A stretch of DNA of 64,000 bases from Methanosarcina sp. 2.H.T.1A.6 (GTDB taxonomy: Archaea; Halobacteriota; Methanosarcinia; Methanosarcinales; Methanosarcinaceae). Below, one piece after another: positions 28,177 to 49,874 of this stretch. The DNA lies in NCBI RefSeq assembly GCF_000979455.1, contig NZ_JJOY01000048.1, positions 62,001 through 126,000 of the forward strand, in the 5' to 3' direction. The notes beneath the pieces were generated by a model. That model did no database searches, was not told where the DNA came from, and saw nothing but the letters and a program-made list of their open reading frames with translations. The stretch's first letter is position 1; each line of letters begins with the position of its first letter. The translations under genes and the position numbers were made by a program.

Positions 28177-29796
28177 TCAGTTGCCTGCAACAGTCAGGTT
28201 TTCCCATTTGAACCTGTCATCCGGGCAGGCATGCAGGCAGCGCTGGCAGTTTGCTCCGTCACAGAGGTCGGTCCTTATTTTTACAGTCCCGTTGTCTTCC
28301 ATCCTGAGAGCTCCGTTGGGGCATACTTTTGCACACTGTTTGCAACCTGTGCAGTTTTCGATGACCATGGTAAGGTAGGTCCCGACTTTTTCAAGCACTT
28401 CAAGTCCTTCTTCTCCGAGTTCAGGAATATCTCTTTCAACCTGGCGGTCGATTTTAAGGTTCGTTGAAGGCTCGCTGATCATGGGGAGACTTTTCTTTTT
28501 CAGGAACTTCTGTAGCATCTTGAATGCCATACCCTCGTTCCAGTAGGCAAGTTCAAGCATATATGCTTCCTTAAAGGCCTCGGAGGTTGCGAACATCACA
28601 TGCGTGCCCAGGATTTCCTTTGCAATTGCCTGCAGTTCCCGGAGCCTGTCTTCAGAAAGCAGGATTTCCCGGGCAACAGTCAGGGAAGTGTTCCCTATCT
28701 GGGAGACATAATTTGCGTTGTAAGGGATCATTCCTACCTGGTGGGCTTTTGCGGCATCCATGTAAGTCCCGGCAGCTCCTGACATGTGAGCTATCTTGAG
28801 GTCTTCCATCCCAATGCCTGCAGCTGCACAGAGGGTAATGTGCCCTGCCCTGAGTGCCCCTATGGCTCTTCCGGCCGCTATAAGGTCTTTATCCGTAAAC
28901 TTGATCCCATCCTGAAGGTGAATGATGCCCTCAGGAGTCTTAATTTTTGGCAGAACTATTAGTTTGTTCCTTATCCCGGCTTCGATAAGGGCAATAACTC
29001 CTGTCCCTGTAATGCCTTTTGCAGTGACCTCACCCTTTTCCACAACATCCCCTGTCTTCGGGTTTACGAGGTCTCCCATGGCTGTTTTCATATCCCTGTC
29101 GAGCACGTAACAGCGCAGGTTTTCTCCTTCAAATTCGACATCGCAGATGGTATGCGGGGATGCAATGGACCCGCATTCGATTTCCTGACCTTCGAGAGCT
29201 GGACCGGCAGCAGCCGATCCGGTGTAAATAATCCCGTTTGATTTCAGGGCCATTTCGGCGTTTGTCCCGTAGTCCGTAGCGATCGCAATCTCATCACTCT
29301 CGATCATGCCTGCCTTTACTATAAGGGCAAGTGCATCGGCTCCAACCTCGTGTTTTATGGAGGGGGGCACAAACAGTTTGCAGTTCTTAAACTCCTCAAA
29401 TCCCTCGATTTCGGTCAGAGGTATGATTCGAGCGTCTCTGTTTTGTTCCTCAATATGATACTTCTGTTTCTTACGCTCGCCTGCGTATGCCAGGTCTTCA
29501 ATGGGAATTTCCTGAAAGATAGAGAGCTGGATAGGGTTTCCGCAGATTGATAACTTCTCCATCTCTTCAGGTTTTACTCCGAGTTCCGTAATTATATTTT
29601 TTACTGCTGTTGCCGAGAGCCCATGGGCTTTGTCAAGCCCGTAATGGATTGCAAAGTCAAGGTGGTCCATTACGTTTGCTCCCGGCAGGGGGTTCCGGAG
29701 AGTTATCACGGTTTTCTTAATCTTGCTGTTTTCCAGGTCAATTTTCTGGGCCCTGAATCCGCTGGTTCCCAGGTCAATTGCAACTCCTGTTTTCAT
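28177..29796 (-). CDS. ramA: RamA-like corrinoid reductive activase
   Basis: ATP-dependent iron-sulfur protein of 539 residues that returns oxidised Co(II) corrinoid to Co(I). Seen: N-terminal ASKHA-type ATPase region starting VAIDLGTSG (residues 5-13), a TDYGTNAE segment near 170, and a C-terminal ferredoxin domain with two [4Fe-4S] motifs, CxxCxxCxxxCP at about 489-500 and a second with CDGxxCxxC near 516. It is a paralog of RamA of methylamine systems. Genes around it are mtbA-like and mtsF, so its clients are probably methylthiol and methanol corrinoid proteins. Confidence 0.88.
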   Translation of the reverse strand: MKTGVAIDLGTSGFRAQKIDLENSKIKKTVITLRNPLPGANVMDHLDFAIHYGLDKAHGLSATAVKNIITELGVKPEEMEKLSICGNPIQLSIFQEIPIEDLAYAGERKKQKYHIEEQNRDARIIPLTEIEGFEEFKNCKLFVPPSIKHEVGADALALIVKAGMIESDEIAIATDYGTNAEMALKSNGIIYTGSAAAGPALEGQEIECGSIASPHTICDVEFEGENLRCYVLDRDMKTAMGDLVNPKTGDVVEKGEVTAKGITGTGVIALIEAGIRNKLIVLPKIKTPEGIIHLQDGIKFTDKDLIAAGRAIGALRAGHITLCAAAGIGMEDLKIAHMSGAAGTYMDAAKAHQVGMIPYNANYVSQIGNTSLTVAREILLSEDRLRELQAIAKEILGTHVMFATSEAFKEAYMLELAYWNEGMAFKMLQKFLKKKSLPMISEPSTNLKIDRQVERDIPELGEEGLEVLEKVGTYLTMVIENCTGCKQCAKVCPNGALRMEDNGTVKIRTDLCDGANCQRCLHACPDDRFKWENLTVAGN

Positions 29797-30102
29797 ATCT
29801 TAACCTCCTCCAAAAAAGTTTAAGACTTACTCAACTAATTATCTCAGCATTTGTTATTTTTAATAAATTTCAATAAGTTTTATGGCGAATAAGCTGTTCC
29901 GGTAAGTTTTGCTGAATCACTTGCCTGGATCTAGCTTCCTAAAATAACAGCCTGTTAGGGACCCGGTTCCGGATCTCCTCATTCCTGAGGTCCCTTCCTG
30001 GAAAAGTAAAAAAAATATGAATCGGGACAGAAAATCCCGAAGTTCTAATTGTTTTAGAGCTCCGGGATTTGCCCCTAAAAAATAAAGAAAGTTTGTGCCT
30101 TT
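29797..30102. other. Gap between mtbA-like and ramA-like genes
   Basis: Holds a probable minus-strand terminator for the mtbA-like gene: hairpin CGGGACAGAAAATCCCG (about 30023-30039) with an eight-base T-run on the minus strand at 30009-30017, and further left the ramA leader. No gene seen. Confidence 0.5.
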
Positions 30103-38739: not shown

Positions 38740-39525
38740 TTATATTTTCTCCAGGCGTCTGGACATCTCTTTATAATATATAAAGAGCTCTTCGCACCAT
38801 TTAAGTGCGCTTTCATCGAAGCTCATCAACCGCTGATGGTCAAATTTTCCTTTTTTATCAAAGAGTACAAGAGAGCAGAAACGTTCTGTTACGACGTCTT
38901 TAAGTGTTACATTTTTGTCACAGATATATACTTCCGTATTCTTTGATTCTACAAGAGTCTTCAGGTCTTCAAAATAATCCTTTTTCATTCTATCAAAGAC
39001 CGGTTCTGTCAGGACAAGGCATATTTCTGCTTCTTTTCTTACGAGCTCTGAATAGATTTCAATATGGAGGGGATTGAAATATGAAAGAAACATTTTTATG
39101 TGTTTTGACTCAAGAAGATTCTTCTTAAAGTCTTCTGGAACTTCGAAAAGCCGGTTAAGATCGGCTTCAAGCATGAAGTAATTTCCGAGTTCATTAATCC
39201 TATTAAGAAGATGCTCAGGAATTGCGGTAAAATCATGGTTAATCCAGTAATCGTAGTTTTCCTCGAAAACCCTGACCGTATCAAGCAGAGGCTCCATCTT
39301 CTCAACAACTATTTCCCCCATATCCGTGAGCCTGTAGGCATTGTTTTCATCCAGCACGATCAGACGCCCTTCCTTTAATTTCTTGATCTGGGGCATAATT
39401 GAAGTCGAGGTAACGTTAAGGGCTGTTTTTATTTCGTCGCCTGTCTTGGGCCCTTCTTCCAGAAGGAGCAATAAATCTTTCCTTTTTTCAGATAGGAATG
39501 CCAGGTCAATAAGTGATATTTTCAT
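38740..39525 (-). CDS. Msr-family methyltransferase regulator (DUF1724)
   Basis: Fourth Msr paralog in the window, 261 residues, winged helix (SEKRKDLLLLL, 11-21) and DUF1724 domain with SFDESALKWC near the end. It is not adjacent to a methyltransferase gene; the nearest neighbours are the sensor kinase/regulator pair and the Ehr-like operon. Orphan Msr proteins may bind promoters at a distance. Target unknown. Confidence 0.85.
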   Translation of the reverse strand: MKISLIDLAFLSEKRKDLLLLLEEGPKTGDEIKTALNVTSTSIMPQIKKLKEGRLIVLDENNAYRLTDMGEIVVEKMEPLLDTVRVFEENYDYWINHDFTAIPEHLLNRINELGNYFMLEADLNRLFEVPEDFKKNLLESKHIKMFLSYFNPLHIEIYSELVRKEAEICLVLTEPVFDRMKKDYFEDLKTLVESKNTEVYICDKNVTLKDVVTERFCSLVLFDKKGKFDHQRLMSFDESALKWCEELFIYYKEMSRRLEKI

Positions 39526-39950: not shown

Positions 39951-40853
39951 TCATTCCTTTATTCCGGTAGCAAGGACGTAACCCACATATTTTGATGTTG
40001 ACTTTTTTCGGAGCAGGATTTTTTTGCCTTCTCCCAGTCGGTTGAACCGGTACCGGATCGTTCTGCTGAACAGGTAATACTTTCCCATTTTCAAAATCAG
40101 CTCTGCAAAGTACCGGGAAAATTTCCAGCTTCCGCCCATCCCCTCCATAAGGGCTTTTACTTCTCCAGGGCTTGGAGAAGGCCTGAACTTTCGGATATTT
40201 ACATCTTTGAGCCCCCTTTCCTCAAGTCCCTTTTTCCATTCTTCCGGCGTGGAGGGGGAAAAGGGAAGCCCTGTTATTTCCCTGAATACTTTTTCTGCAT
40301 AAGCGATTTCTTCAGCGGCTTTCGGGGGAATCCTCTCCTCTTTGTACAGTTCGTTGATTCCCACGTAGCCCTCCGGTTTCAGGACCCGCGCGAATTCTTT
40401 GAAGGCCCTGCCCTTGTCCAGGAACTGGGACACAAACTCGGTTATCACTGCGTCAAAAGTCCCGGCTTCGAAGGGCAGGGCATAAGCGTCCCCAACCCTG
40501 AACTTCACCCTATCCGAAACTCCCTGCCTTCTGGCCCGTTCTTTTGCTTTCTCAATGGAAAGTTCTGCAATATCAATTCCCACCACCTCACAGCCGATTT
40601 TTCTGGCAAGGAAACAGGCCGAAAAGCCGGTTCCACAGCCTACCATCAGGACTTTTTTCGTCCTGTCAATCCGGCATAACTCTGCAAGTTTTTTGGTGGA
40701 TACAAGGCCGCCTGTATGATAATAGGGCACTCCCAGGTAACTCATGAAATCGTAGTAGCCAAGAGCTTCGGCTTCTTTAACTGAAAGCCACTTCTTGGCG
40801 GCAGATACTTCCTGTTTTGTTTGTGCATCTGGATTTCCCGAACTTTCAGACAT
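39951..40853 (-). CDS. SAM-dependent methyltransferase ending the Ehr-like operon
   Basis: Class I methyltransferase of 300 residues: SAM-binding motif I VGCGTGFSA (about residue 72), motif II acidic GIDIAE, motif IV FDAVITEF. The C-terminal 80 residues are basic and unlike small-molecule methyltransferases of the UbiE type, though sterol/ubiquinone-type enzymes are the nearest look-alikes. ATG 40853 has GGGAG 7 bases upstream; the frame is open up to 41042 but that start has no site. It follows the small subunit gene by about 200 bases and is on the same strand, so cotranscription is likely but not certain. Substrate unknown. Confidence 0.75.
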   Translation of the reverse strand: MSESSGNPDAQTKQEVSAAKKWLSVKEAEALGYYDFMSYLGVPYYHTGGLVSTKKLAELCRIDRTKKVLMVGCGTGFSACFLARKIGCEVVGIDIAELSIEKAKERARRQGVSDRVKFRVGDAYALPFEAGTFDAVITEFVSQFLDKGRAFKEFARVLKPEGYVGINELYKEERIPPKAAEEIAYAEKVFREITGLPFSPSTPEEWKKGLEERGLKDVNIRKFRPSPSPGEVKALMEGMGGSWKFSRYFAELILKMGKYYLFSRTIRYRFNRLGEGKKILLRKKSTSKYVGYVLATGIKE

Positions 40854-41057: not shown

Positions 41058-41570
41058 TTATTTGGAGGCGTTTTTTACAAGGGCAAAAATCCCTTTCAGG
41101 ATTTCTTTCGGAGAGGGCGGGTTCCCGGGAATTTTCATATCCACAGGCAGGATTTTATCAACCCCGCCGAGTACGGCGTAAGAACCCTTATAGATCCCGC
41201 CGTCACAGGCATCGTCTCCCACTGCTACCACAAATTTTGGGGAGGGCATGGCTTCATAGGTTTTTTTCACGGCTTCAGCCATGTTAAGGGTAACTGCTCC
41301 CGTAACCATCAGGACGTCAGCGTGTCTCGGGGAAGCAACAAAAGAGATCCCGAACCTCTCAACATCATAATGAGGATTTCCGAGGTTTGAGATTTCAATC
41401 TCTGTGGAATTGTCACTGCCTGAATCCAGTTCGCGGATGGCAAGGCTGTGCCCGAAAACTTTCGGGATCTCTTTTTTGATTTCTGCTCCAAGGGCTTCCA
41501 ATTCTTCATCCCGGAATTCAAAGGTCTCCGTAACCTTGGGCCGGAGAAAGAGGGAAAGAGGGTTTACCAT
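41058..41570 (-). CDS. Ehr-like small subunit (NuoB/HyfI family), cluster ligands lost
   Basis: 170 residues of the NuoB/HyfI family, which normally carries the [4Fe-4S] cluster nearest the NiFe site or quinone. The scaffold is well kept (ERFGISFVASPRHADVL, VTGAVTLNM, PSPKFVVAVG), but the four cluster cysteines are replaced: GSCNGC becomes GSDNST, GDCA becomes GDDA, and PGCPP becomes PGNPP. One Cys two positions after the third site cannot build a cluster alone. It should be a structural subunit without electron transfer. It lies 34 bases after the large subunit gene. Confidence 0.85.
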   Translation of the reverse strand: MVNPLSLFLRPKVTETFEFRDEELEALGAEIKKEIPKVFGHSLAIRELDSGSDNSTEIEISNLGNPHYDVERFGISFVASPRHADVLMVTGAVTLNMAEAVKKTYEAMPSPKFVVAVGDDACDGGIYKGSYAVLGGVDKILPVDMKIPGNPPSPKEILKGIFALVKNASK

Positions 41571-41604
41571 AATTATACCTCGTGTTTCCTAAGTTTTTGT
41601 ATAT

Positions 41605-43242
41605 TCAAAGGTCGGTTCCTGCATAGGAGAGGTTAAGGCTCTTGTTGATCAGGGGAAAGTCGGGAACAATATTTCCGAGTACTGCATGTTCTATAACTTG
41701 CCAGTTACAGAAAGATGCCGTTCTTACCTTATAACGGTCAACAATCCCGTTTTTCATGTAGACCCAGTGCAGGTTCTGTCCCCTTGGGGCTTCTACAAGG
41801 GCAAGGGAATATCCTGTAGCTCCAGGGCTATTGGCTTCTCTTAGATTATGCCCGGCGTATCCGGCGTATCCGGTACTTTCAGCAAATATGGGGCCCTGTG
41901 GAAGTTTTTCTGCGAGGCGCAGGATCAGGTCCGCAGATGCACGGATCTCATTGGCTTTTACCTCAAAGCGGGAAAATACATCCCCTATTTTCCTTACTGA
42001 AAGTTCCGGAGCAAAGTCTTTATAGGCTCCATAGGGCCTGTCGAGCCTGGTGTCGGCAGGACAGCCTGAAGCTCTGGCAAGAGGGCCTGTAAGGTTAAGC
42101 GGAGAGACAAGTTCCTTTTTTATCACGCCTGTCGTTGCAAACCTGTCAATAAGTGAAGATGAAGACATTGCCCTCTCGAAAGCAGTTTCAAATGCCCTGG
42201 AAAACTTTTCCAGGAAGGCAGGAAGGTCGTTCAGGAGTGAATCGGGGATGTCCTTTTTCAACCCCCCGGGAATGGTAATTCCGCGCAGGAACCTTGAGCC
42301 TGTCAGTTTTTCGTTCTGCCTGAATGCCTCTTCCCTCAGTATTAAAAAGGGGCTTGCCACAAGAGAAAAGCCTACATCTACAGCCATTCCAGCAAGGTCT
42401 CCGAGCAGGGAATAAACGCGTTCGAGCTCAAGCATTATTGCCCGCAGGCGTTCTGCCCTTTCAGGTACTTTTATTCCGCATACCTGCTCTACTGCCATAC
42501 AGAACCCTGTTGCATTTGCCATACTTTCGTCCCCGCTCACTGCTTCGGCAAGAGCGACGCATTCTGAGGGGCTTTTTCCTTCAGCCAGTTTCTCTATTCC
42601 CCTGTGCTTGTAAAAAAGCCGGATTTCCAGGCTGAATATAGGCTCTCCTATCACGCTGAACCTGAAATGCCCCGGCTCGATTATTCCGGCATGCACAGGC
42701 CCGACAGGGATCTGGTATACACCTTCGCCTTTAACCTGCCTGAACCTGTACTCTTTTCGGGGGAATTCAGAGGGGCGGATAGGCCCGTTTTTGAAGGTTT
42801 TTAGCAGAGGGTGGAAGCCTTCGGGGTAGCACTCGTGCAGGAAAAGCCTTCTGTTATCAAGGGCACCGGCAAAATCCAGCCCGAAACCATCCCTAATTTC
42901 CCGCTCAAACCAGGAAGCCGAGGGGAAGGTTCCTGCAACCGAGGGAACCTCTTTTTCTTTTTCTGCCTCCCGGACAAGTACAAGGGCAGGGGCCTGTCCT
43001 GCCTGTTTGAATACATAAAAGAGGGTAAATCCGCTCTTTTTTTCAAAGGCTTCTGCGCAAAAAAGCCCGATAAGGCTGAACTTCCTTTCCGCAAGCGCAA
43101 GAGCCGCATCTTCAAACCCGGTTTCCGAAAGCCTCAGGTATATTTCGTTTTCACGGGCATTGAGCAGTTCGGGCTCTTCTTCTACAATGCCCGAAATTAT
43201 TGAAAGCAATTCCGCTGTATCTTTATTCATTTTGATATCCAT
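41605..43242 (-). CDS. Ehr-like large subunit (NuoCD/HyfG family), NiFe ligands lost
   Basis: 545-residue fusion of a NuoC-like domain (about 1-165) and a NuoD-like domain. The quinone/hydrogenase core PVGPVHAGIIEPGHF and HRGIEKLAEG are kept. The N-terminal NiFe motif CGIC...H aligns with SGDE...N, and the C-terminal DPCxSC aligns with NLSYAG, so all four nickel ligands are absent. A GGGGCGG site precedes ATG 43242. The protein resembles HyfG/HycE in scaffold but cannot be a NiFe hydrogenase, and without a cluster in its partner it probably does not reduce quinone-like carriers. Confidence 0.85.
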   Translation of the reverse strand: MDIKMNKDTAELLSIISGIVEEEPELLNARENEIYLRLSETGFEDAALALAERKFSLIGLFCAEAFEKKSGFTLFYVFKQAGQAPALVLVREAEKEKEVPSVAGTFPSASWFEREIRDGFGLDFAGALDNRRLFLHECYPEGFHPLLKTFKNGPIRPSEFPRKEYRFRQVKGEGVYQIPVGPVHAGIIEPGHFRFSVIGEPIFSLEIRLFYKHRGIEKLAEGKSPSECVALAEAVSGDESMANATGFCMAVEQVCGIKVPERAERLRAIMLELERVYSLLGDLAGMAVDVGFSLVASPFLILREEAFRQNEKLTGSRFLRGITIPGGLKKDIPDSLLNDLPAFLEKFSRAFETAFERAMSSSSLIDRFATTGVIKKELVSPLNLTGPLARASGCPADTRLDRPYGAYKDFAPELSVRKIGDVFSRFEVKANEIRASADLILRLAEKLPQGPIFAESTGYAGYAGHNLREANSPGATGYSLALVEAPRGQNLHWVYMKNGIVDRYKVRTASFCNWQVIEHAVLGNIVPDFPLINKSLNLSYAGTDL

Positions 43243-43254
43243 ATTTACCGCCCC

Positions 43255-44805
43255 TTAAACATACCCGAGTTCAAGAATTATCGCATCAAGCAGATCCCTT
43301 AGTGAATCCGGGAAATAAAAGCCAAGGGCAAGGGCAAGAGCCAGCATGAAGATCGTTGGGACCTTCATTCCATCCTTTACCATATATTGACCCGCAAGCC
43401 TGCTTTTCTCATAGCCTGCTTTTCCTGTGGAGAGTTCCTTTGCGTTTTCTCCTGTTCCTGCAGGAGTCCTGGTTATGTGTCTGTGCTCCTCTTTTTCATT
43501 TTCTTCCTCTACAGTCACTTTTGAGAAGGCTTTTAACAGGAAGTTTGCAAAGGATGCAGCTGCAAGGATGAGCATGAGCAGCACTGCAAGGGTCATGTAG
43601 GGAGAAACTATCGCACTTTCCAGCAGGATGAAATATTTTGCCGGGAAGAGAGGAAAAGGCGGCATTCCTACTATTGCAATGCTCCCAAGGATCAGGCACC
43701 AGGCTGCCATGGGCTGGAGTTTGAAGACATCCTTCATATTTTCACGCATATTGCTTCTGTATTGCCTGTGCAGAATGCCTGCGGAAAACAGCAGAGTTTC
43801 CTTTACCAGGATATGGACGAGCATGTAATATAGAGTCCAGAAAAGGGCAATAGGCGTCCCGATCCCTATTCCTATGAGGAGAAGGCCCATATGCTCGACA
43901 CTTGAGAAGGCTATCAGCCTCTTTAAATTCCTCTGCTGGAACATGCTGAATGAAGCGAGAGCAATTGAGAAAACCCCTGCTGCAATCAGGATAGAAGACG
44001 CCTGTGGGGCGGCACTGCTCTCTCTAAGCAGGGCATACATCCTGATAATTCCGTAGATTCCCAGATTCTGCATTAAACCTGAAAGAATTGCACTTACCGA
44101 AGGTGCCCTTGCATAGGCGTCCGGGAGCCAGGTGTGGAAAGGAGCTACCCCTGCTTTTGCCCCGAAGCCTATGAACGTGAATGTAAAGCTTGCAAGGAGA
44201 AGGGCAGGGGAAAACTCAGAGGCATGAACTGCCAGTACTGTCCAGTTGAGGGTGCCCTCTCCGAGGGTCTGTTCAGAGAGGGTGAAGAGGAAAACCAGCC
44301 CGAGGAAAGCAAAGAGCATGGCTCCGGAGACTATGAAGACGTACTTTAAGGCTGCATCGATATTCTCCCTTGCTGACAGAATTGCAACAAGCATGGCAGC
44401 GCAGACCGTTGTGAGTTCTGCAAAGATCCAGAAAAGCGCCAGGTTATCCGAAAAGAGCGCAACAGTGGATGTAACAAGCAGGAGATTGAAGGCAAGGTAG
44501 AAGGTCTTCAGGTTTTTAGGGTCAAGTTCTCCCGCTTCCATAAGGCTGTCGGTATACCCTCTGGCATAGAAGGCTGCCGCCGAAAATCCCAGGGCCGTTA
44601 TTAGTTCCACATAAAGGTTAAGGTGGTCAAGATAGAGAGATTCTCCGAGCCTTCCTGGCAGGTCAAACATGAGCAGAGCTGTGCAGCTCATGACAAGGTG
44701 CAGCAGGCCGTTTCCTGCGGCAAGCGCATTCATGAGTCTATGAGATTTTGGAATAAGACCAAGTGCCAGGAATATCCCCATTACTAACAGGTAATACCGG
44801 ATCAC
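43255..44805 (-). CDS. Ehr-like antiporter subunit (HyfF/NuoN family)
   Basis: 516-residue multi-pass membrane protein of the proton-translocating antiporter family with about 14 helices. Conserved features of active members are present: a Glu in FAELTTV (TM5 position), Lys in FGAKAGVAPFH, and HILVKETLLF with the TM12-type Lys. The last 80 residues include a hydrophilic stretch rich in Glu and Lys before the final helix. Start overlaps the previous gene by 4 bases. It should translocate H+ or Na+. Confidence 0.88.
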   Translation of the reverse strand: MIRYYLLVMGIFLALGLIPKSHRLMNALAAGNGLLHLVMSCTALLMFDLPGRLGESLYLDHLNLYVELITALGFSAAAFYARGYTDSLMEAGELDPKNLKTFYLAFNLLLVTSTVALFSDNLALFWIFAELTTVCAAMLVAILSARENIDAALKYVFIVSGAMLFAFLGLVFLFTLSEQTLGEGTLNWTVLAVHASEFSPALLLASFTFTFIGFGAKAGVAPFHTWLPDAYARAPSVSAILSGLMQNLGIYGIIRMYALLRESSAAPQASSILIAAGVFSIALASFSMFQQRNLKRLIAFSSVEHMGLLLIGIGIGTPIALFWTLYYMLVHILVKETLLFSAGILHRQYRSNMRENMKDVFKLQPMAAWCLILGSIAIVGMPPFPLFPAKYFILLESAIVSPYMTLAVLLMLILAAASFANFLLKAFSKVTVEEENEKEEHRHITRTPAGTGENAKELSTGKAGYEKSRLAGQYMVKDGMKVPTIFMLALALALGFYFPDSLRDLLDAIILELGYV

Positions 44806-45488
44806 AGGGATTCCACTCCTGTCCAGATCTGCAGTTTTCGGAATTTCTGCCTGTATTCTTCAATGCTCGAGTCCATCCCCACAGCCAGAATAGTGGTCAG
44901 CATGACCAGGATAATAAGGTCGATTATAATCAGGACTTCGATGATAAAGGGAAGCTCCGTAACAAAAAGCCCGAACATCAGGACCCCATTTTCCATGCTT
45001 AGGTAGCCAAGCGCTTTTGTGATTACCTTTTTTCTGCTGAACATCACAAGCATGCCCATCAGGGTCAGGGAAAGGCCTATCACAGCCCCGAAGAAGAAGA
45101 GCCTCGAGAGGGGCAGTCCTTCGAAGACCCTTGAAAGGAACGTATAGGAGAGGAGGATAAGGCCTATGCTCAGCAGAAGAGAGGGAGTAGGCTCCAGATA
45201 CGCAAAGTGAAGGTCTCTTCCGATTTTGATTTTCTCTTCTATTCTGGAGATAAAGTAAGGAATAAGAATTACCTTGCTTGCCAGGGTCAGGCCTGCCAGC
45301 AGCAGAAGCTGACCTTTTCCGTCTATCATGTAGAGGAGAAATGAGACTGCAGATAGCAGGAAAGATTGGATTGTGTATGTGGTAAGGACCGAACTCAGGT
45401 TGCGGGTTGAGATGATCAGCCCTGCACTGATAAGGACAAAGACGAAAAGGACCTTTATTATGCCTTCAAGGAAGAGCGGGTCAATCAT
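44802..45488 (-). CDS. Ehr-like membrane subunit (HyfE family)
   Basis: 228-residue membrane protein with about seven hydrophobic segments, family of HyfE, which contains the MrpC/NuoK-like fold at its C-terminal part. Overlaps neighbours on both sides by 4 bases (ATGA junctions). No catalytic motif expected; it links the antiporter subunits. Confidence 0.8.
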   Translation of the reverse strand: MIDPLFLEGIIKVLFVFVLISAGLIISTRNLSSVLTTYTIQSFLLSAVSFLLYMIDGKGQLLLLAGLTLASKVILIPYFISRIEEKIKIGRDLHFAYLEPTPSLLLSIGLILLSYTFLSRVFEGLPLSRLFFFGAVIGLSLTLMGMLVMFSRKKVITKALGYLSMENGVLMFGLFVTELPFIIEVLIIIDLIILVMLTTILAVGMDSSIEEYRQKFRKLQIWTGVESL

Positions 45489-46426
45489 GCAAACACCTCG
45501 ATAAGGATGGTAAGGGCTGAAAAGAAAAATGCCATCACGTAAAATGCAGGAAGCCTGAAGAGCCTCATCTTTGCAAGGGCTGATTCAAAGAGCCCGATTA
45601 TTATTGCAAGCAGCCCTGCTTTCAGGAGGAAGAGAATGGCTGAGACCGCAATTTTTCCGGCATCTATCTCAGTACTGAGCCCTACTGGAAGAATTGTGTT
45701 AATCAATATCCCCATAAGCAGGAACTGTTTAAGAGCATGGGCAAGTTCAAGCAGGGCAAGATTTTTTCCTGTCTGTTCAAGGATCATTGCCTCATTAATC
45801 ATGGTAAGTTCAAGGTGAGTTGCCGGGTTATCCACAGGGAGCCTGCCGGTCTCCACGATCAGGATAATGAAGAGCGAGATTGAGACCAGGACAAGGGTCG
45901 GGCTAATGGGAAGGACCGTGCCTGCAGTAAGTGCGAACATATGGTGCAGATTGAGGCTTTTCAGAACAAAAGCCAGAGCTGCAAAAGCAACTACCATCGT
46001 TGGTTCGATCACGGCTGCAAGGCTCATTGACCTTGAACTGCCCATGCCTCCGAAAGCACTTCCTGCGTCAAGTCCGCCAAGGGCGGTAAAGAACCTTTCA
46101 AGTGCAAGAAGGTACAGGAAGACAATGATATTCCCCAGCCCTCCTGCAGGTTCCGGTACAAAGACCAGAGGTACGAAAAGGGAACAAACTAGCAGAGTCG
46201 AAAGGTTGAGGTATGGGGTAAACCGCATGACCCAGGAGGAGGTAGGGGAATAGACCGCTTCCTTCTTCATGAGTTTTCTTAAATCGTAATAAACCTGAAA
46301 AAGCCTCGGGCCCTTTCTTCCCTGGGCGTATGCCTTTACCTTCCGGATCAGAGCCATGTATAGAGGGGCTGCCAGCAGGGCAAAAAGCGGATTTAAGAGG
46401 GCAAAGAGCAGGAACGACGTGTTCAT
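45485..46426 (-). CDS. Ehr-like membrane subunit (HyfC/NuoH family)
   Basis: 313-residue NuoH/HyfC homolog with eight hydrophobic segments. The conserved cytoplasmic acidic loop is present (ETGRLPVDNPATHLELTMINEA) and an RKGPRLFQ segment near residue 37 that faces the soluble arm. This subunit joins the membrane and peripheral arms in group 4 hydrogenases and complex I. The acidic residues that carry the proton signal are retained. Translation coupled with overlapping ATGA junctions. Confidence 0.88.
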   Translation of the reverse strand: MNTSFLLFALLNPLFALLAAPLYMALIRKVKAYAQGRKGPRLFQVYYDLRKLMKKEAVYSPTSSWVMRFTPYLNLSTLLVCSLFVPLVFVPEPAGGLGNIIVFLYLLALERFFTALGGLDAGSAFGGMGSSRSMSLAAVIEPTMVVAFAALAFVLKSLNLHHMFALTAGTVLPISPTLVLVSISLFIILIVETGRLPVDNPATHLELTMINEAMILEQTGKNLALLELAHALKQFLLMGILINTILPVGLSTEIDAGKIAVSAILFLLKAGLLAIIIGLFESALAKMRLFRLPAFYVMAFFFSALTILIEVFA

Positions 46427-48363
46427 ACAAGGCCTCCGGTTGCTATAATCAATGCAATTACTGCCAGAAAGGCGTAAAGGACGTAACTGTCAAGTTTTCC
46501 GTTCTGCAGGCTTGAAACATATTTTGAAAAACTCTCGATTGCCTGCGCAGGAGGGATGTAAAGGTACTCTTCAAAGAAGCGAAGAAGGCGGATTTCCACG
46601 TTCCCGTTTTTAAAGAGGCTTTCCTGTTTGTCGAGGTACTCAGCTTTGTGCACAATCTTTGTCCTGTAAATGTTTTTGAAGATCATTACAAGAGGCTCGG
46701 AAAAGCCTGCAGAGCTGTATTCCATGTAAGGGGCAAGGGTCGGACTTCCGCATCCCCAGGTTTCGCTAATCCTGGCAGGGCTCGTTTCTTTTGAACGGAT
46801 TATCAGGAAAAGGGCTGCGTATATTAACCCAAGCAGAAGCCCCAGCAAAAGCAGGTCCGGGAACTCAATCTCCCAGCCTGCAAGAGAAAGGAGCTGCTTT
46901 GAGAAAAGCCCTGCAAGTATGCAGAGAGCTGCTGGCACTGCGGATCCTATCAGCATGGGTTTCTGGACTTCTACAGCAAGGCGGCTCTTTTCCGAACGCG
47001 GCATGGCAAGACAGGTGATCCCGAAAAGTTTTACGAAAAGAGCAGCTGCCAGTGCTCCGGTAAGGGCAAAGCTTGAGAGAGCAGTTATCAGAAATACGGT
47101 GAGAAGGGGGTCAGTTACGGCAAACGACTGGAAGAAAGCCTGGTAGAGCAGGAGTTCACCAGCAAAACCGTTTGTTGGGGGCAGGGCTGCAATCGAGACT
47201 GAACCTATCATGAAAAGGGCTGAGGTTACAGGCATCGTTTTTACAAGGCCTCCGAAGGCTTCGATATTCCTTGTGCCTGTAGCATGGACTATCGAGCCTG
47301 CACAGAGGAAGAGCAGGCTTTTGAAGAGGGCATGGTTAAAGGCATGGAAGCAGGCTCCGGCAAGGCTTAACAGGGCGAGGGATTCAAGCCCTTCAACTTT
47401 GAATATAACATAAAGCCCTATTCCCGTGAAAATGATTCCTATGTTTTCAATGCTGCTGTAGGCAAGGAGCCTTTTTATGTCGTTTTCCTTAAGGGCATAA
47501 ATTACCCCAAAGAGGGCTGAAAGGCTGCCTACTGTAAGGATGAGTACTCCCCACCAGAGTTCAGGTGTGAAGACAGAGAGCAGGAAACGCAGGAAGCCAT
47601 AGACTGCAACCTTCAGCATGACTCCGGACATCAGTGCCGAGACACTTGATGGGGCTGCAGGGTGAGCATAGGGAAGCCATTTGTGGAAAGGAACAAGTCC
47701 TGCCTTGACCCCGAAACCAATAAAAAGGGAGAGGAAGGGGAGAGCCAGCTCGCTTGCAGAGTATTCAAGCGGTCCGAACTCGGCCGAGCCTGTCAACTTG
47801 AAGAGGCTTATGAAGCCCACGAAAAGAAACGCCGTGCTGATGTTGGTCATCACGAAGTAGAAAAAGCCTGCTTTTTTATTTTCCTCAGAGGAATAGTCGT
47901 GAAGCACAAGCAGGAGAGATGAAAGGGACATTATTTCCCAGAAAATAAGGAAGATGACCATATTGCCTGCAAGTACAACCATAAGCATGGCAAGGATGAA
48001 GAGATTTGTCAGGGCTGTCTGCAGGTTTTTCCTGGATTCACTTTTAGCGTGTTCCACATATTCTACCGAATATATTGAAACACCGGGCACGACTGCTGCA
48101 ATTAGCAGGATAAATCCGGCTGAGAGCCGGTCTGCAGCAAGGGTAAAATCCAGGCCCGGAAGATATCTAATGGCTGGAAATACAGGCTCTTTTCCAGTGT
48201 AGAGGATCGCGCCTGCAAAACCCAGAAGCAGGATTGATGAGATCAGAGAAAGGCCAAAAGAAGTCTTTCTTGTGTTTTTACTGCGGTACAGGAGAGGGAG
48301 GACAGTTCCGGATATAAGGGCGGCAATTGCACCGTACACTAAGGCTTCGAGCAATGTATTCAC
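46423..48363 (-). CDS. Ehr-like antiporter subunit (HyfB/NuoL family), operon head
   Basis: 646-residue NuoL/HyfB-type membrane protein with about 15 helices and a C-terminal extension of about 100 residues ending in a final helix. Motifs of active antiporter subunits are kept: FWEIMSLSS (Glu of TM5), VKAGLVPFHKWLP, and FNHALFKSLLF (His and Lys). First gene of a six-gene complex (B, C, E, F, G, I) followed by a methyltransferase gene. No HyfH-type ferredoxin subunit is encoded, again unlike a working hydrogenase. Confidence 0.88.
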   Translation of the reverse strand: MNTLLEALVYGAIAALISGTVLPLLYRSKNTRKTSFGLSLISSILLLGFAGAILYTGKEPVFPAIRYLPGLDFTLAADRLSAGFILLIAAVVPGVSIYSVEYVEHAKSESRKNLQTALTNLFILAMLMVVLAGNMVIFLIFWEIMSLSSLLLVLHDYSSEENKKAGFFYFVMTNISTAFLFVGFISLFKLTGSAEFGPLEYSASELALPFLSLFIGFGVKAGLVPFHKWLPYAHPAAPSSVSALMSGVMLKVAVYGFLRFLLSVFTPELWWGVLILTVGSLSALFGVIYALKENDIKRLLAYSSIENIGIIFTGIGLYVIFKVEGLESLALLSLAGACFHAFNHALFKSLLFLCAGSIVHATGTRNIEAFGGLVKTMPVTSALFMIGSVSIAALPPTNGFAGELLLYQAFFQSFAVTDPLLTVFLITALSSFALTGALAAALFVKLFGITCLAMPRSEKSRLAVEVQKPMLIGSAVPAALCILAGLFSKQLLSLAGWEIEFPDLLLLGLLLGLIYAALFLIIRSKETSPARISETWGCGSPTLAPYMEYSSAGFSEPLVMIFKNIYRTKIVHKAEYLDKQESLFKNGNVEIRLLRFFEEYLYIPPAQAIESFSKYVSSLQNGKLDSYVLYAFLAVIALIIATGGLV

Positions 48364-49072: not shown

Positions 49073-49205
49073 TATTCCTTTCTTATTCCTTTCTTATTCC
49101 TTTCTTATTCTTTTCTTATTTTTTTTCTTATTTTTTTCTAATTCTTTTCTTATTTTTTTCTAATTCTTTTCTTATTTTTTTCTAATTCTCTTCTTATCCT
49201 TTTTA
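49073..49205. repeat. T-rich tandem repeats (12-bp and 22-bp units)
   Basis: About four units of TTATTCCTTTCT followed by three units of a 22-bp TAATTCTTTTCTTATTTTTTTC block, ending at the stop codon of the next minus-strand gene. Pyrimidine-rich on the plus strand only. Confidence 0.8.
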
Positions 49206-49874
49206 TTCTTTTAAAACCCTGTACACCAGATGCACATACTTCTTTTCCACAATTTCATTTTTTAAAAGTTCAAGTTGAATCCCGCTTTTCTCAATGCCTC
49301 TGAAAAGATTTGTCCCGGGTTTTCCCACAATCTCCGGAGTCAGGACCAGGCTGATTTCCTCAACGAGCCCCTGTTCGAGCAGAATGCTGTTCAGTATTCC
49401 TCCGCTGTCCGAGACTACAAGCTTAAAACCATACCGTTCATTTGCAATTTCAAGTGCTTGCTTGACGTCCACGCGTTCTGCTCCTGCCCGGATAAAGTCG
49501 TAGTTCCTTTCCTTTAGATAATTGATGTAAGGCTCAGGAGTTTTCTCCGATACAAGGACGATCACATCTTTACTGTACTCGGAACGCCTGAAAACGTGCA
49601 TCAGCCCTTCAAGAATTCCCCGGGAATCAGCGATCATCCAGTATGCCCGGGTGTCGTTAGGCTGAATTTCAGGTTTCTTGAAGTCCAATTCATCTTCCGG
49701 AGGGACTTTTTCGCAAAAAAATTGTGTTCCCGCCTTTGCGGTGTTTGAGCCGACTATCATGGCATCAGGCTCGTAATTGCCCAGGATTCCATAGTGAACA
49801 TCAAGGTTTGCCGTAAAGCCGGTAGTTGAGCCGTCGAGACTTATGGTGTTGTGTATGACCAGTCTGGGTAGCAT
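49203..49874 (-). CDS. RibD C-terminal-type reductase (DHFR-like fold)
   Basis: 223 residues of the RibD_C/DHFR-like family that reduces 2,5-diamino-6-ribosylamino-pyrimidinone phosphate in riboflavin and F420/FAD-type pathways, NADPH dependent. Seen: start PRLVIHNTISLDG, VGSNTAKAGT, and a GGILNSILLEQGLVEEI segment typical of the family. It may be the archaeal arfC-type enzyme or a paralog with another substrate, since the central segment is diverged. Divergent from the ABC transporter, so shares its promoter region. Confidence 0.78.
   Translation of the reverse strand: MLPRLVIHNTISLDGSTTGFTANLDVHYGILGNYEPDAMIVGSNTAKAGTQFFCEKVPPEDELDFKKPEIQPNDTRAYWMIADSRGILEGLMHVFRRSEYSKDVIVLVSEKTPEPYINYLKERNYDFIRAGAERVDVKQALEIANERYGFKLVVSDSGGILNSILLEQGLVEEISLVLTPEIVGKPGTNLFRGIEKSGIQLELLKNEIVEKKYVHLVYRVLKE

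Follow-up and report, generated by a model that had tools for sequence, protein, structure and literature searches.

It has long been asked how electron transfer in the head of complex I brings about ion movement at a distance of tens of angstroms, and a locus of Methanosarcina sp. 2.H.T.1A.6 poses the question from the other side: what would drive a complex of this superfamily that has lost its redox ligands? The locus is a six-gene operon, HyfB-NuoH-HyfE-HyfF-NuoCD-NuoB, which open reading frame (ORF) inspection places at 48363-41058 on the minus strand of a 64,000-nucleotide stretch of contig NZ_JJOY01000048.1 (the window). A first reading of this DNA from its letters alone, the original prediction, had described it as an Ehr-like complex with its ion-translocation machinery kept, and the gene set, the tree and the pump residues agree with that description. 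We find that the encoded complex has no redox ligands, no adjoining ferredoxin and no spare NuoB, that it is under purifying selection with the replacements fixed across its clade, and that its pump and coupling residues are kept. A natural complex with a coupling path but no redox centre separates electron transfer from ion movement.

Loss of the NiFe and iron-sulfur ligands

End-to-end alignment of the NuoB-like small subunit (170 residues; 41058..41570, minus strand, as for all operon coordinates below; PF01058) with Pyrococcus MbhJ places D53, T56, D120 and N150 at the positions of the four [4Fe-4S] cysteines. The first ligand loop, GSCNGC in MbhJ, reads GSDNST (D53, T56; 41403..41420), the third-ligand loop reads GDDAC (D120; 41205..41219), and the PGC of the fourth-ligand loop has become PGN, here PGNPP (N150; 41115..41129). 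The sole cysteine of the protein, C122, lies two residues past the third ligand site and off the ligand position, which rules out a rescue by displaced cysteines in this subunit. An AlphaFold2 model (predicted local distance difference test score 92) matches the NuoB fold of complex I with a Z of 21 and a root-mean-square deviation of 1.4 A over 132 residues; since the model keeps this fold, the replaced loops would sit at the cluster position.

The large subunit, a NuoC-NuoD fusion of 545 residues that resembles hydrogenase large subunits (41605..43242; PF00346, PF00329), has likewise lost its ligands. Aligned with HycE, it carries S236, E239, S539 and G542 in place of the four NiFe cysteines and N243 in place of the motif histidine. 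At the RxCGxCxxxH site, RVCGICGFAH of HycE corresponds to AVSGDESMAN (residues 234-243; 42514..42543), and at the DPCxxCxxR site DPCYSC corresponds to NLSYAG, here NLSYAGTD (residues 537-544; 41611..41634). None of the seven cysteines of this subunit falls in a CxxC pair or in a ligand column. Both losses had been read from the letters alone, and the alignments bear them out residue by residue. Judging from these sequences, neither a NiFe site nor a Cys-ligated proximal [4Fe-4S] site can form.

A cluster might still be supplied by another gene. The original prediction had stated that no ferredoxin-type subunit is encoded, and our motif search found none in or beside the operon; the single match in the window lies at 28180-29799. 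The genome (4.07 Mb) encodes four NuoB-family proteins, namely the operon NuoB, two small subunits that resemble those of Vho/Vht, and FpoB, whose contig also carries three Fpo antiporter subunits. We reject a spare NuoB or ferredoxin as cluster donor, no suitable gene having been found among these or near the operon. Thus neither displaced cysteines nor a separate cluster-supplying gene, the two findings that would have spoken against the loss, was encountered. As an observation in its own right, the protein at 28177-29796 (minus strand) combines an N-terminus like that of corrinoid-activating ATPases with a CxxCxxCxxxC ferredoxin motif, and presumably resembles the methyltransferase activation proteins of methanogens.

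These observations also bear on a hidden form of redox chemistry, in which D53, D120, N150 and T56 would hold a cluster or a mononuclear metal, or a docking partner would feed a bound phenazine or quinone. Asp or Asn does occupy three of the four replaced sites, and independent losses reach similar residues, which leaves room for a metal site. The subunit nevertheless has one cysteine overall, and we know of no precedent for an all-oxygen-ligated [4Fe-4S] cluster. Position 56 moreover drifts to Ala or Pro among relatives, and no gene with a ferredoxin motif lies inside any cluster-free operon examined. We regard hidden redox chemistry as distinctly unlikely.

Conservation and selection

The replaced ligands are not peculiar to one genome. 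When the small subunit was searched against 392 genomes of the phylum, 31 genomes scored at or above 210 bits, the next score being 170 bits, and the ligands are missing in every inspected member above this drop (28 by regular expression and 3 by reading the sequences). The replaced motif, GSDN[SA][TA]E / GD[DE]AC / PGNPP, is invariant in almost all of these 31 and recurs in Dehalococcoidia. Conservation across Methanosarcina, which the original prediction had asked to be examined, is therefore found and reaches well beyond the genus. Since different genera carry the very same motif, sequencing error and chance can be ruled out as its source.

The six genes are grouped together in 15 Methanosarcinaceae loci. 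The median ratios of nonsynonymous to synonymous substitution rates (dN/dS), approximate values from the NG86 method on pairs with dS <2, are 0.087 for NuoB, 0.115 for NuoCD, 0.117 for HyfF, 0.109 for HyfE, 0.069 for NuoH and 0.136 for HyfB, so that NuoB and NuoCD are constrained as strongly as the membrane subunits. The operon is not decaying. These values weigh heavily on the proposal that the head is dead weight, either a decaying hydrogenase relic kept as a scaffold or part of an operon that is being lost as a whole. Two successive cofactor losses and the absence of the operon from several Methanosarcina genomes would fit such a history, but dN/dS near 0.1 in all subunits, with purifying selection on NuoB and NuoCD themselves, strictly fixed new residues at the old ligand sites and six intact genes in many genomes make it very improbable.

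The HyfB family gives a similar picture in the sampled phylum, where 30 genomes score at least 787 bits, with one copy each, before a drop to 594. PRK08667 is in effect a marker of the cluster-free group within the sampled phylum, its cut-off nearly coinciding with the clade. Both PRK08667 and PRK08676 are named 'hydrogenase membrane subunit', a misleading label for metabolic models. Methanosarcina acetivorans is the sole control genome over the HyfB cut-off; this genetically tractable species carries the HyfB of this group, so that deletion and point mutants are feasible.

Repeated loss of the cluster within the Ehr branch

The large-subunit alignment was used to scan genome contigs, and the best 80 of 573 loci were taken as the relatives, a sample that may lack rare or distant ones. 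Almost all of these 80 lack the NiFe ligands, and most retain the small-subunit cysteines, as in Methanoperedens, Nitrospira, ammonia-oxidising archaea, Acidobacteria, Rokubacteria and others. The cluster is lost in Methanosarcina and its sister genus, Methanoregula, a metagenome-assembled genome (MAG) of Altiarchaeales, Dehalococcoidia and Micrarchaeota. In the large-subunit tree these cluster-free groups form one clade of 15 rows with a Shimodaira-Hasegawa-like approximate likelihood ratio test (SH-aLRT) support of 99, and the 13 rows that remain without Micrarchaeota are also supported at 99. The clade falls among cluster-bearing Ehr, in a tree whose rows include no Geobacter Ehr, and its exact sister group is weakly placed. 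The tree is a quick one made without bootstrap, its deep order is weak, and midpoint rooting serves for drawing only.

Mapped as a label on this tree, the loss requires about six changes, at least four of them on strongly supported branches. Genomes of the Candidate Phyla Radiation (CPR) form a separate clade (99), with TCDD or related states at the four ligand positions and small-subunit loops that read GDDA and PGDPP. A Chloroflexi MAG (L079; JAMCWX010000034.1, 11247-12323 and 9122-11419) keeps all four NiFe cysteines in its large subunit and a ferredoxin-like domain fused to its small subunit, and has DCED at the ligand positions, in loops that read GSDNSCD, GDEAC and PGDPP; its combination of kept NiFe cysteines and lost proximal ligands may be an independent loss or an assembly problem. 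On these sequences the CPR and the Chloroflexi MAG lost the cluster separately from the main clade. The separate losses mostly converge on Asp or Asn at ligand positions three and four, and one Rokubacteria locus has lost one of the four small-subunit ligands.

Two further groups of loci deserve mention. In L125, L126, L131 and L118, from CPR and other bacteria, the small-subunit gene stands first and most or all of the Fe-S ligands are independently lost, the small subunit of L118 being partly covered. The Micrarchaeota loci L099 and L110 are Ehr operons without a recognisable HyfE gene, which may have diverged beyond what the model recognises or may be genuinely absent.

Retention of the pump, the coupling path and the emptied pocket

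The original prediction held that both antiporter subunits keep the Glu, Lys and His of active pumps. This is true of the HyfB/NuoL-like subunit (646 residues, with an ND3-like C-terminal part; 46423..48363; NF006418/PRK08667 at 1044 bits, cut-off 794), which by residue counts and alignment to HycC and MbhH retains E143, K220, K251, H344, K348 and E403. It is true of most such residues in the HyfF-like subunit (516 residues; 43255..44805; NF006427/PRK08676 at 764 bits, cut-off 511), where E130, K217, H331 and K335 are retained, but N247 stands at the site of the transmembrane helix (TM) 8 Lys of NuoM and MbhH. This Lys is likewise missing in most Ehr HyfF. The acidic residues of the NuoH/HycD-like membrane anchor (313 residues; 45485..46426; PF00146; HycD E=2.6e-38) are kept as had been claimed, residue counts giving E141, E192, E206, E212 and E217.

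We compared 41 cluster-free sequences (counting that of the window, which is also present as L040) with 59 cluster-bearing ones. HyfB E143, K220, H344, K348 and E403 and HyfF E130, K217, H331 and K335 are invariant throughout the aligned sequences of the two sets, and NuoH E141, E192, E206 and E212 are fixed as well. Two other positions differ. The HyfF TM12 position, Glu in cluster-bearing Ehr, is K390 here, and nearly all of the methanogen-Dehalococcoidia group combines this Lys with Glu or Asp at HyfE 178. We reject these changes as results of cluster loss and read them as features of one lineage, because the cluster-free CPR and Micrarchaeota keep the HyfF Glu.

The head retains its side of the coupling path. 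The large subunit of the window keeps H184, E189, D289, R487 and D544, and within the cluster-free set H184 is found in 40/40, E189 in 38/40 and D289 in 39/40 sequences. We take H184 and D289 to correspond to Nqo4 H38 and D139. In the alignment H184 and E189 fall on HycE H188 and E193 of the beta1-beta2 loop, which connects the active site to the acidic channel in formate hydrogenlyase (FHL) and complex I (PMC9474812). With H184, E189 and D289 retained, the protonic or conformational coupling path is kept despite the lost electron path.

The emptied NiFe pocket is also conserved. Its core, S-G-D and LSYxGxD, is common to cluster-bearing and cluster-free Ehr, the cluster-free clade additionally fixes E239 and N243 (38/40 each), and S236, G237, D238, E239, N243, Y540, G542, D544 and R487 are nearly invariant in the 40 cluster-free complexes. 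Since the pocket is still fixed after loss of the only nearby cluster, its conservation implies a role there that cannot depend on electrons from this cluster, and suggests a use of the pocket that is independent of electrons. If the emptied pocket can outlast the cluster in conserved form, it may have no redox role in Ehr at large.

Such conservation also speaks for our main rival explanation, an ion-driven non-redox catalyst in the manner of DAB, in which inward ion flow would drive or gate a reaction in the former NiFe pocket. There is a precedent in DAB2, where the proton-motive force is linked through a NuoL-like subunit to the hydration of CO2 by a subunit in the cytoplasm (PMC13144422). 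However, both head subunits match complex I and hydrogenase families only and no known hydrolase, lyase or carbonic anhydrase, and the neighbouring genes examined offer no substrate and no conserved catalytic partner. The candidate partners by neighbourhood, an alpha/beta-hydrolase-like protein of 260 residues, a HisD-like and an acetyltransferase-like protein (all named by eye), are unshared among related operons, and guilt by association is therefore uninformative. We consider a catalyst of this kind unlikely.

A redox-independent exchanger as the favoured mechanism

The explanation we favour, tentatively and with somewhat less than even confidence, is that the complex works without electrons, as a proton/cation exchanger that needs no redox chemistry and has its head as the gate. 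The clade would have lost its last redox centre after the NiFe loss in Ehr. The membrane arm (HyfB, HyfF, HyfE and NuoH) would move protons, perhaps in exchange for another cation as Mrp antiporters do, and the NuoCD-NuoB head would control this movement. The trigger might be a proton or a ligand bound in the former NiFe pocket (S-G-D-E...N and LSYAGTD) and in the acidic former cluster site (D53, D120, N150), with the signal passing through the beta1-beta2 loop (H184, E189) to the NuoH acidic channel and on to the antiporter-like subunits. The ion, the direction and the assignment of gating rather than catalysis to the head are inferred from conservation and precedent. It is possible, though we lean slightly against it, that the complex is a cofactor-free complex I whose ion translocation is set off not by electron transfer but by (de)protonation, or by a ligand, at D53/D120/N150 and in the emptied NiFe pocket. 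The coupling machinery of complex I would then run on chemistry other than redox. A Mrp-like antiporter and a conformational or ligand driver, both named in the original prediction, are plausible.

A second gene set in the Altiarchaeales MAG (L057; JAHEXG010000007.1, 15832-20858) fits a membrane arm that may work as an ion transporter. It consists of intact HyfB2-NuoH2-HyfE2-HyfF2 without large or small subunit genes and lies 3.8 kb after the full cluster-free operon, to which its products are 57, 64, 60 and 50 percent identical, respectively. A superoxide-dismutase-like gene follows HyfF2 on the opposite strand.

Several points weigh against the exchanger. This MAG encodes one close large subunit only, and the ND3-loop Cys, which contacts the large subunit in FHL (PMC9474812), is retained in the head-less copy; the copy may therefore borrow the single head, and it is known from one MAG. 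Every sampled genome of the phylum above the HyfB cut-off has a single HyfB, and head-less modules are therefore not general. The Na+-carrying candidates in Mrp are MrpB, E, F, G and the C-terminal domain of MrpA (PMC9568556), and these putative Na+ subunits have no counterpart in the operon. Finally, the strongly conserved emptied active-site pocket could equally mean catalysis.

Operon layout and neighbouring genes

Within the operon the first four genes each overlap by 4 bp, and the remaining two gaps measure 12 and 34 bp. Pfam and NCBIfam give a clear family assignment for five of the six ORFs; the sixth, the HyfE-like (NuoK-type) membrane subunit (228 residues; 44802..45488; E166, E178, E184), is a match to NF008556 below its cut-off (E=1.6e-16).

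A gene for an S-adenosylmethionine (SAM)-dependent methyltransferase lies 3' of the operon (39951..40853, minus strand; 40853 is the probable true start), and the original prediction had offered methyl transfer as a possible driver. In the window and in several relatives it stands after nuoB in the same orientation, but it is an inconstant neighbour: 7 of the 15 Methanosarcinaceae loci did not yield it, and at L049 (10485-11177) it is split into two ORFs, an apparent pseudogene. The corrected start leaves 204 bp after nuoB, and no methyl-carrier or corrinoid family was matched over its cut-off. Beside most operons of the Methanomicrobiales type the gene is absent, the only match (L181) lying 5 kb off on the other strand. 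The methyltransferase is probably not part of the complex, and a methyl-transfer driver is so improbable that we set it aside.

A FilR1-type regulator and a RibD_C-domain reductase (38740-39525 and 49203-49874) border the operon in most Methanosarcina loci, and both are under purifying selection.

Comparison with known systems

Gene content and residues exclude the complex from the hydrogenases, from complex I and from Mrp. HycC, HycD and HycE of the group 4a Hyf/Hyc complexes are the best solved relatives of HyfB, NuoH and NuoCD, but the operon lacks the NiFe site, the proximal cluster, the HycB/HycF ferredoxin subunits and formate dehydrogenase. The marks of a group 4 [NiFe] hydrogenase (CxxC pairs, and proximal ligands with a ferredoxin-type subunit) are absent. 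Similarly, the sequence that the small subunit matches best is MbhJ of Pyrococcus furiosus Mbh, whereas the Mrp-like MbhA-G sodium module, NiFe and Fe-S of Mbh are missing here. With complex I and Fpo the complex shares the NuoB fold, the His-Asp coupling pair and the NuoH acidic residues; it differs in lacking the N2 cluster ligands and an electron input module and in having two antiporter-like subunits.

Two systems share ion translocation without redox chemistry. Like the operon, Mrp has antiporter subunits with the TM5 Glu and TM7 Lys; unlike the operon, it has no NuoH/NuoCD/NuoB head, and its MrpB, C, E, F and G are not encoded here. DAB also uses a complex-I-type antiporter subunit without redox chemistry (PMC13144422), but its DabA, of beta-carbonic-anhydrase-like fold, has no counterpart in the operon.

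The closest likeness is to Ehr, which is defined by a large subunit without NiFe-binding cysteines (PMC6349859, PMC10432482, PMC10284858) and known from Geobacter, Nitrospira, ammonia-oxidising archaea, CPR and Sulfobacillus. The operon shares the gene set and order of Ehr, the loss of the NiFe cysteines and the SGD and LSYxGxD motifs, and its large subunit falls within the branch (clade support 99). It differs in a small subunit without the four [4Fe-4S] ligands, which 59 of the compared Ehr-type complexes keep and which are usual in Ehr though not stated as defining, and, with nearly all of the methanogen-Dehalococcoidia group, in the HyfF TM12 and HyfE 178 positions. A cofactor-free Ehr branch looks undescribed, as the literature compared mentions NiFe loss only; the founding papers (Marreiros et al. 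2013, Coppi 2005) lie outside that comparison. We read the complex as an intact and working member, with all six subunits, of the Ehr branch within the superfamily of complex I and group 4 hydrogenases.

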